DNA from: Sulfurivirga caldicuralii
Lineage (GTDB): Bacteria; Pseudomonadota; Gammaproteobacteria; Thiomicrospirales; Thiomicrospiraceae
Length of the DNA: 64,000 bases
Direction of reading: 5' to 3'
NCBI RefSeq assembly: GCF_900141795.1
Contig: NZ_FSRE01000004.1
Coordinates: 1 to 64,000, forward strand
This document shows, in pieces, positions 58,348-61,524 of this stretch. The notes beneath the pieces are model-generated. The model did not search any database and was not told the origin of the DNA. It saw only the letters and a list, made by a program, of their open reading frames with translations. The position numbers were made by a program, and so were the translations under genes. Every line of letters starts with the position of its first letter. Position 1 is the stretch's first letter.

Positions 58348-59659
<1,312 letters not shown>

Positions 59660-59683
59660 CTAAAATCGCATTAGTATTAGTAC

Positions 59684-59943
59684 AGGCACCGCCGTAAAGC
59701 CTCTAAACGGTCGCGACAGTGATGATTCCGATTCAAGTCAAGGCGCATCGAGCGTGGCATGGTCATTCCATGCGAGCGAGATGTAACACCGCATTGAGCC
59801 GGAATCACCCTGTCCCTGCTGGTTGCGGCGCAATGGCCGGCTCACGCCCCGCCCTGTCGCCACCACAGGTGGCGCTTGCTGCCCGCATCGGATGCGATTG
59901 CGCCGGCAACGCGAGTGCATTCAGAGGTTTTGCGGCGGTGTCT
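59684..59943. repeat. MITE-like palindromic element A (260 bp)
   Basis: Ends are 21-bp inverted repeats with 18 matches: AGGCACCGCCGTAAAGCCTC from 59684, and AGAGGTTTTGCGGCGGTGTC from 59923. Inside lie CGGTCGCGACAGTG, a head-to-head inverted segment around 59750-59780, and a perfect hairpin CGCCACC-ACA-GGTGGCG. It fills the hemF-M48 lipoprotein gap; no gene is supported here. Confidence 0.7.
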
Positions 59944-59965
59944 CAAATTGTAGAGGGGTTTTGCC

Positions 59966-60835
59966 ATGGCCACCAAGGGGGGTCCCCGACTTTTTCGCGG
60001 CCATGTTTTTGCCGCGCTGAAAAATGCCCTGCTGGGCGGCACGCTGGGGCTGTTTCTGGGCCTGAGCGGCTGCGCCACGGTCAAGACCACGCAAAGCGGC
60101 GCCGTGGGCGTGCAGCGCAGCCAGTTGATGCTGGTGTCCGAGCAGGAACTGGAAAAAGCCGCACAGCAGTCCTATGCGCAGGTGCTGGAAAAGGCCCGCA
60201 AGGCGGGCAAGCTGGATACCGACCCCGCCATGGTGGCACGGGTGCGCCGTATCGTGCAGCGACTGATCCCGCAGACCCGTGTCTTCCGCCCGGATGCACC
60301 GCGCTGGCGCTGGAAAGTGCACGTGATCGATTCGGACGAACTCAACGCCTGGTGCATGCCCGGCGGCAAGATCGTAGTCTATTCCGGCCTGATCAAAAAG
60401 CTCAGGCTGACCGACGACGAGCTGGCTGCCATTCTCGGCCACGAAATCGCCCACGCTTTGCGTGAACACGCCCGCGAACGCACCAGCCAGGCACTGGCGG
60501 CCAATCTGGCACTGGATCTGGGTGCTGCCTTTCTGGGTCTGGACAGTGGTTCGCGCCAGCTGGCCGGCACCCTGTATCAGGTCACCGTCGGGCTGCCGTT
60601 CAGCCGCCTGCACGAGCAGGAGGCGGACCGCATCGGCGTGGAGCTGGCGGCACGGGCGGGCTACGATCCCTATGCGGCCGTGCGTGTATGGGAAAAGATG
60701 ACGCGCCTCAGCAAGCGCAATCCGCCCGAGTGGCTCAGCACCCATCCCAGCCACACCAGCCGCATCAAGGACCTGAAAAAGTACGCGGCGAAGGTTTATC
60801 CACTGTATTTGCAAGCGAAAGGATTGAAAAGCTGA
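59966..60835 (+). CDS. M48-family metalloprotease lipoprotein (LoiP/YcaL-like)
   Basis: 289 residues. Lipobox at LFLGLSGCAT, so the mature protein is membrane-anchored in the periplasm. Zinc-binding HEIAH with the third ligand in EQEADRIGVE. Family members degrade misfolded outer-membrane proteins. The start (ATG 59966 after AGAGGGG) lies 22 nt beyond repeat element A. Codons 4-10 are made of the dispersed 19-mer (59977-59995), so the signal-peptide n-region (ATKGGPRLFRGH) seems derived from repeat DNA. Confidence 0.88.
   Translation: MATKGGPRLFRGHVFAALKNALLGGTLGLFLGLSGCATVKTTQSGAVGVQRSQLMLVSEQELEKAAQQSYAQVLEKARKAGKLDTDPAMVARVRRIVQRLIPQTRVFRPDAPRWRWKVHVIDSDELNAWCMPGGKIVVYSGLIKKLRLTDDELAAILGHEIAHALREHARERTSQALAANLALDLGAAFLGLDSGSRQLAGTLYQVTVGLPFSRLHEQEADRIGVELAARAGYDPYAAVRVWEKMTRLSKRNPPEWLSTHPSHTSRIKDLKKYAAKVYPLYLQAKGLKS
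59977..59995 (+). repeat. Dispersed 19-mer repeat, copy 4 (start of the M48 gene)
   Basis: GGGGGGTCCCCGACTTTTT within codons 4-10 of the M48 lipoprotein gene, 34 nt beyond the end of MITE-like element A. Confidence 0.85.
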
Positions 60836-60857
60836 ATCCATGCCTCCATAACTTGTA

Positions 60858-60953
60858 AGGCACCCCCGCAAAACCTTTGAACGGTCGCGACAGTGGCGAT
60901 TCTGGTTCAAAGCAAGGCGTGGCGAGCGCATGCAGAGGTTTTGCGGGGTGCCT
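60858..60953. repeat. MITE-like palindromic element B (96 bp)
   Basis: AGGCACCCCCGCAAAACC from 60858 and AGGTTTTGCGGGGTGCCT ending at 60953 are inverted repeats. The interior shares CGGTCGCGACAGTG and the following 35 bp with element A, while about 160 bp present in A is missing. Together the elements bracket the M48 gene. Confidence 0.75.
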
Positions 60954-60981: not shown

Positions 60982-61524
60982 ATGCTGTCGGTTTCCATTT
61001 ATCAACTTCTCAACCGTCAGGTCACCGAAGAACAGATCGCAGCCTACAAGTATCTGCAAATGGCTGCGTGGGCGGAAAAGGAGGGCCTCGAAGGCGCCGC
61101 CAGATTCTTCCGCATTCACAGCCAGGAAGAAGAAGCCCATCGCGACCGCCTGTTCGACTATCTGAACGAATGCGACCAGGAAGTCATTCTCGGCGACATC
61201 CCTGCACCGAAACACGACTATGCCCACCTGCTGGAAGTGGTGGAAGCGGCTTACGAACACGAGAAAAACGTGACCCGCATGATCAAGAACATCGCCGAGA
61301 AGAGCTTTGCCGAGCAGGATTTCCAGACCTTCAATTTCATCCAGTGGTTCGTGGCCGAGCAGCACGAGGAAGAGACCCTGTTCATCAAGGTGCTGGACAA
61401 GGCCAAAGTGCTGGGCTACACCGGCCAGAGCAGCGGTGAGGCGCTGTATCTGTTCGACCAGTATCTGGCCCGCGCCCACAACGAGGCCGAAGGCAAGGAA
61501 GATGGCGGCAAAGACAACGCCTGA
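60982..61524 (+). CDS. ftn: Ferritin (non-heme, FtnA-like)
   Basis: 180 residues from ATG 60982, after a perfect AAGGAGG. Four-helix bundle with ferroxidase ligands in EEQIAAYKYLQMAAWAEKEG, SQEEEAHRDRL, EAAYEHEKNV and FVAEQHEEE. No heme-binding Met of bacterioferritin was recognised. Stores iron by oxidising Fe2+. Confidence 0.93.
   Translation: MLSVSIYQLLNRQVTEEQIAAYKYLQMAAWAEKEGLEGAARFFRIHSQEEEAHRDRLFDYLNECDQEVILGDIPAPKHDYAHLLEVVEAAYEHEKNVTRMIKNIAEKSFAEQDFQTFNFIQWFVAEQHEEETLFIKVLDKAKVLGYTGQSSGEALYLFDQYLARAHNEAEGKEDGGKDNA

Follow-up and report, generated by a model that had tools for sequence, protein, structure and literature searches.

MITE-like elements on either side of an M48 metallopeptidase gene in Sulfurivirga caldicuralii and the folded core of their family in proteobacteria

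Two palindromic elements, A and B, lie on either side of an M48 metallopeptidase gene in the window, the whole stretch of 64,000 nucleotides of S. caldicuralii contig NZ_FSRE01000004.1 that was analysed. They are best explained as non-autonomous MITE-like elements inserted independently beside a resident gene, with a presumed DDE transposase acting in trans, a core kept for its fold or through copying between its arms, and an internal deletion giving rise to B; the probability of this reading is put at nearly four in five (about 0.78). The features of the region are the following, in window coordinates.

58727..59650, - strand: hemF, the left neighbour (PF01218)
59685..59942, + strand: element A, a near full-length copy of 258 bp with terminal GGCACC/GGYGYC, one of at least 27 copies in the genome
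59685..59708, + strand: left terminal inverted repeat of A, predicted to pair with the right end
59709..59829, + strand: first folded unit of A (covariance model R1, 139 bits, A being one of the model's own training sequences)
59830..59919, + strand: second (inverted) half of A, diverged, with the outer stem kept in the predicted fold
59920..59942, + strand: right terminal inverted repeat of A (sequence comparison and predicted fold)
59966..60835, + strand: M48 metallopeptidase gene, between A and B (PF01435, E 2.4e-40)
60859..60952, + strand: element B, read as an internal-deletion copy, 94 bp with terminal GGCACC/GGYGYC
60982..61524, + strand: ferritin-like gene, the right neighbour (PF00210)

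Elements A and B and the genes around them

The original prediction had placed a pair of palindromic elements here, and both were found in their places and fold strongly in comparison to shuffled sequence (z -6.4 for A and -6.6 for B, 0/200 shuffles each). They are the only two family copies in the window, and the first unit of A is its only match to R1; the second half of A is too diverged to give a match on the opposite strand. The terminal repeats of A are imperfect, GGCACCGCCG being paired with CGGCGGTGTC. A and B have terminal inverted repeats in common together with the GGTCGCGACAGTG core, a perfect AACGGTCGCGACAGTG core is likewise present in both, and the similarity extends over the left 71 nt (80% identity) and the right 25 nt (92%). 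Element B corresponds to the left ~70 nt of the family joined to the right ~25 nt, with unit 2 and the preceding sequence back to the tip of unit 1 missing. As judged from this comparison, B is a deletion form of the family, presumably produced by an internal deletion that left the ends intact; that it is a deletion form, as had been proposed, holds for the family, but not provably for copy A as the parent.

The bracketing of one gene had been taken for the arrangement of a mobilisable cassette, A and B being the ends of a compound element that carries M48. This is extremely unlikely, the geometry of two related elements flanking one gene being what speaks for it, and it was rejected as the gene stands at the same place without the elements in the congeners. 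The hemF–M48 adjacency is present without elements in all three congeners, and in seven of the eight other family loci compared the two genes are no more than ~1.2 kb apart. The original prediction had proposed to look for empty sites, and sites without the elements were found in relatives: A is absent from its site in 3/3 congeners and B in 2/2 with a contig that spans the B site. The hemF/M48 gap is read as ~57 bp in one congener (L092) and 315 bp in the window, and the congener gaps are too diverged for a base-exact empty site to be defined. Under random placement of 27 copies, 0.50 pairs within 1.2 kb are expected, and the probability of at least one such pair is 0.40; a second close pair, ~1 kb apart, is indeed present at C7:520109 and C7:521154. 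Furthermore, the M48 protein has a single match in the genome, its closest named relatives are Sulfurivirga records (68–69% identity), and no outer target duplication was seen around the pair. The M48 gene is a resident, ordinary gene and not cargo. Since the congeners lack the elements and the spacing of the pair is at chance level, the elements are regarded as non-autonomous MITE-like insertions and not as parts of a mobilisable gene. For annotators, two elements bracketing a gene are no evidence of a cassette.

In two congener loci (L092, 5800–6400, and L091, 1110–1700) there is an extra small gene between M48 and ferritin, at the place of B, which we take to be PsiE-like. Element A is placed in the divergent gap between hemF and M48, and the native sequence left between it and the gene starts is only ~34 bp on the hemF side (59651–59684) and ~23 bp on the M48 side (59943–59965). 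With so little native sequence, A has to be situated within the hemF and M48 promoters or contribute to them, if the genes have promoters of their own. A consensus promoter scan gave one weak site on the + strand, at 59639–59666.

The repeat family in the Sulfurivirga genome

The genome (1.67 Mb in seven contigs) contains at least 27 dispersed copies of the family, assembled from BLAST searches that took A, B or the best copy as query (42 and 49 BLAST pieces). The copies are 69–276 bp in size, most of them ~235–276 bp, and too short for a transposase. Both ends are kept and the middle is lost in the short forms, which include B, c16 (178 bp) and c21 (~70 bp). Ends of the GGC..GCC type were readable in 20 of the 25 aligned copies and degraded in five. 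Among the 20 readable copies, five have exact 4-bp target duplications (CTTA, TTTA, TTAT, TTAG and CTGA), for which 0.26 were expected from mismatched flank pairs and which none of 20,000 permutations reached; exact duplications of length 5 to 9 were not found among these copies. Neither A (TACA/TCAA) nor B (GTAA/TAAC) has an exact 4-bp duplicate left. The MITE-like character claimed by the original prediction is borne out by the dispersed copies, the terminal inverted repeats, the target duplications of the family and the sites without elements. Also the genome-wide search that it had called for yielded further copies, and of the outcome that would have spoken against it one half was found, the gene without elements at the same place in relatives, while the other half, a lack of other copies, was not.

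All 27 copies are at gene edges or between genes, the nine that were flagged as overlapping called frames being read as frame extensions or as ends at the edge. The gaps are convergent in 11 cases, divergent in six, tandem in five and unassigned in five. Because the copies are diverged (the best match of copy c3 is 90%), there has been no recent movement in this genome.

Exact TATAAT motifs reading outward occur no more than 30 bp from the element in 6 of 50 flanks (copies c3, c12, c16, c21 and c25), against 0.44 expected from shuffles and one counted on the opposite strand; with one mismatch allowed, there was no excess in the flanks (9 vs 6.9). The excess of exact motifs suggests possible insertion beside -10 boxes.

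Related copies were present in 4 of 39 genomes, own included: one of the three congeners (G002), a member of another genus of the same family (G022) and a member of another family (G037). With the G022 copy as query, 5 of 62 genomes of the family had matches, the Sulfurivirga genome among them; one of the five, G076, has no more than a 29-nt match and is left uncounted. An exact 26-nt pattern had no matches over the genome contig collection.

The folded core, its distribution and its movement

The ~270-bp element is built as an inverted dimer from a folded unit of ~120 nt, and full copies consist of two halves in opposite orientation around the centre CCCTTCGGG. The covariance model R1 was built of the first half (121 positions, 34 pairs, 22 sequences). 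In four copies of the Sulfurivirga genome it also finds the second half, on the reverse strand (E 0.01 or better), and an opposite-strand second unit was present in 21 of the 29 external loci. In one locus (G396:C8:7450-7672) two unit matches stand in tandem, both pointing the same way.

In the 22 training sequences, 85.0% of the cells were paired, and 57 cells had two-sided change compared to 27.0 in shuffled data (0/500). The number of pairs with two-sided change, 14 against 11.8, was not exceptional, so a few lineages may account for many of the two-sided cells. In 49 distinct external units, whose alignment was fitted to R1 itself, 93.9% of the cells were paired and 505 were two-sided, against 160.2 expected and at most 119 in slid controls. 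Under the modelled structure, the stems are kept by compensatory change. RNAalifold produced a weak consensus from 19 copies because a sequence-based alignment blurs the stems, and the structure used was that of the single-copy folds. Among 12 near-identical copies of genome G269, one (L291) has a paired A>T/T>A change, and most other stem changes are one-sided.

Combinations of the G-T type exceeded those of the A-C type in the external unit arms (53 to 23, p 0.0008). The ratio was 29 to 18 in the mostly-Sulfurivirga set of 22 (p 0.14) and 17 to 12 in the second units alone, neither being significant, and the terminal repeats showed no excess (17 to 18). A model-fitted count (113 to 16) may be biased and was replaced by the symmetric count. 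These counts give a modest hint that what is important in the unit is one folded strand, and that the ends work as double-stranded DNA. The core would be kept because a single strand folds, either as single-stranded DNA during movement or as transcribed RNA; the neutral alternative is that the arms of the palindrome may be copied onto each other.

R1 was found in 85 of 369 gammaproteobacterial genomes (E<=0.01), in 75 of the 314 of good quality, and in 68 of 271 genera. At E<=1e-4 it was present in 58 of 398 genomes of the phylum, of which 35 belong to other classes and 23, counting the Sulfurivirga genome, to the Gammaproteobacteria. Among 59 other loci scanned with R1, there were only two weak matches. 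Queries with external copies gave matches in the plasmid collection from Azotobacter chroococcum, Halomonas sp. PA16-9, Methylophaga frappieri and Pseudomonas aeruginosa PA83; the first three carriers, including the A. chroococcum and M. frappieri plasmids, are positive also with R1, and the PA83 plasmid matched by BLAST only. The same queries had no match in phages or Escherichia coli genomes, and no match was found with the Sulfurivirga copy in the plasmid collection or with the G022 copy in the plasmid and phage collections. The covariance model finds the family where BLAST of the Sulfurivirga copies finds little.

The external copies keep the length and the architecture, and their outer repeats differ. 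The elements were 261–298 bp in the 25 loci, out of 29, that could be measured, and the terminal repeats were 26–38 nt with at most four mismatches in 24 of 25 loci, the remaining one (L217) having 18 nt with four. The terminal sequences are AGGGCCTGTTMACAC-like in many loci, and GAGCCTGTCTGTGAATAAATC, GAATCTCTGATTAATTC, GAACCTATCTCAGAATCC and others also occur; the Sulfurivirga terminal sequence GGCACCTCCGCAAAACC is unlike these ends. An exact end of the G007 type had no matches over 274 genomes. Also the target duplication apparently differs. In genomes G408 and G269, nearly all of 35 copies have the flanks YT/AGGGCC..GGCCCT/AR, a pattern partly forced by picking the copies with an exact end pattern. 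TA at a YTAR site fits better than a 4-bp direct repeat, since the left T and the right G co-occur. The 15 copies taken from G269 have a median pairwise identity of 98%, and the element has therefore been recently mobile there. In the G408 and G269 loci (L265–L299), 37 gene ends were counted, those of open frames of 120 codons or more that terminate in the element or no further than 200 nt from it. In 11 of them the stop is a TAG created right at the element border, as though the stop were re-created when an element inserts at a YTAG stop codon.

The terminal repeats together with the 4-bp duplication point to a DDE-type transposase that would have acted in trans on the terminal repeats of A and B; this combination resembles that of IS5-type MITEs. 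In a profile search for PF01609, PF01797 and PF13358, none of the three was found in the Sulfurivirga genome; PF01609 was searched in this genome only, and the other two profiles in all 369 genomes of the R1 survey. The 4-bp duplication fits an IS5-type element, and PF01609, absent from the own genome, was the sole IS5 model and this the sole genome searched for it. An IS630-type element is not supported: DDE_3 (PF13358) is absent from the Sulfurivirga genome and no commoner in carriers (25/85 R1-positive vs 69/284 negative genomes, p 0.39). A full transposon with the same ends, sought as the original prediction advised, was not found: there were no paired ends at transposon distance, by eye, among the ~100 of 161 end matches listed for G408, nor among those listed for G269 (most of 55), where the lone end matches fetched were MITE-length elements or lone ends. 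The mobilising enzyme may now be lost, or it may be of a kind other than those searched. The elements are MITE-like rather than derived from a named insertion sequence.

Two further explanations bear on the fold. It is improbable that the elements are kept mainly as RNA, in the form of transcript hairpins controlling hemF, M48 or ferritin, or of a structured non-coding RNA. The strong predicted folds, the compensatory change in the stems and the G-T excess in the unit arms, with none in the terminal repeats, agree with such a role, but the excess may partly reflect the hit selection of the model, and G-T pairs form in single-stranded DNA too. Rfam gave nothing credible over the elements, a MIR918 match in L232 scoring 33.5 bits where the gathering score is 268. 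Every gene orientation is used, and the symmetry of the inverted dimer leaves no preferred transcript strand. The long hairpins of the original prediction are accordingly retained as predicted folds, and their proposed influence on the neighbouring genes is disfavoured by the convergent, divergent and tandem gaps alike.

Movement of an inverted hairpin pair as single-stranded DNA by a Y1 (RAYT/IS200-like) transposase, as in a REPIN system, is also quite doubtful, slightly more so than a role as RNA. The inverted dimer of hairpins with R1 on both strands is of the kind expected, and Y1_Tnp is present in 75 of 85 R1-positive and 166 of 284 negative genomes (Fisher p 1.2e-7, raw genome counts that ignore genome size and kinship). 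However, Y1_Tnp is lacking in the Sulfurivirga genome and in nine other positive genomes, and the Sulfurivirga copies have 4-bp target duplications. The element was present in only 4 of the 20 Y1 neighbourhoods fetched (137 kb, matches at E up to 0.01), which was judged no clear excess and not taken as linkage. In L064 (G037:C18:570356-571902) an element lies ~1.2 kb from a Y1_Tnp gene.

Within the preferred reading of non-autonomous MITE-like elements, the ~120-nt unit, as an inverted dimer of fixed length (~270 bp), might be a conserved selfish module whose outer ends are exchanged, so that different transposase systems move the core, and which is kept through a common host factor binding the folded strand. 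This is tentative and on balance unlikely. The sites under such an exchange of ends would be the 4-bp duplications in Sulfurivirga and YTAR/TA in the others. Should the conserved part be the core, this would imply a factor, of the host or a transposase, that reads the shape of the DNA or RNA, and the recently mobile genomes, one of them at 98% median identity, are places to seek it.

Comparison with known systems

In the main text of the open-access literature searched, no description of these ends or of the family was recognised; the family may have been described under other names, and this negative is no proof of novelty. MITEPsy1 of Pseudomonas syringae is, in the available text of PMC3189936, similarly short and non-autonomous with a 4-nt duplication (CTAG or YTAA), has 18-nt terminal repeats, one side ending CTCTGAAAAAGCC, and is classed as IS5-like with a question mark. 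On this analogy the Sulfurivirga element resembles IS5-type MITEs. Unlike it, MITEPsy1 is 100 nt long and restricted in distribution, and that text describes no inverted dimer of conserved folded units.

QMITE1 and QMITE2 of Coxiella burnetii are likewise long, very stable palindromic MITEs of a gammaproteobacterial host, ~400 bp (PMC5896051) and ~190 bp (PMC10969869) in size, and according to the available part of PMC5896051 they have divergent copies, truncated small forms and sRNAs. QMITE1, compared here by description, is in contrast reported there to be without orthologues by BLASTn. The families R0, R1, R2, R6 and others of Pseudomonas fluorescens (PMC2718517, as far as available) are intergenic, with inverted ends and hairpins, a bias to tail-to-tail gene pairs and sizes of 50–352 bp, a likeness at the level of description.

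REPINs share with the present family the inverted pair of hairpin repeats, the extragenic placement, the compensatory changes and the non-autonomous nature; in the available text of PMC3116915 they are short, with invariant 16-mers 71 bp apart (GI type of P. fluorescens), and movement by RAYTs is proposed. The elements described here differ from them in their ~270-bp length, long terminal repeats, 4-bp duplication and a genome with no Y1 gene. Descriptions of MITEs usually rely on the ends and treat one genome at a time; here the ends vary and the folded middle is common across the phylum. In kind this is a MITE-like family, and it is the breadth and structural conservation of the core that are unusual.
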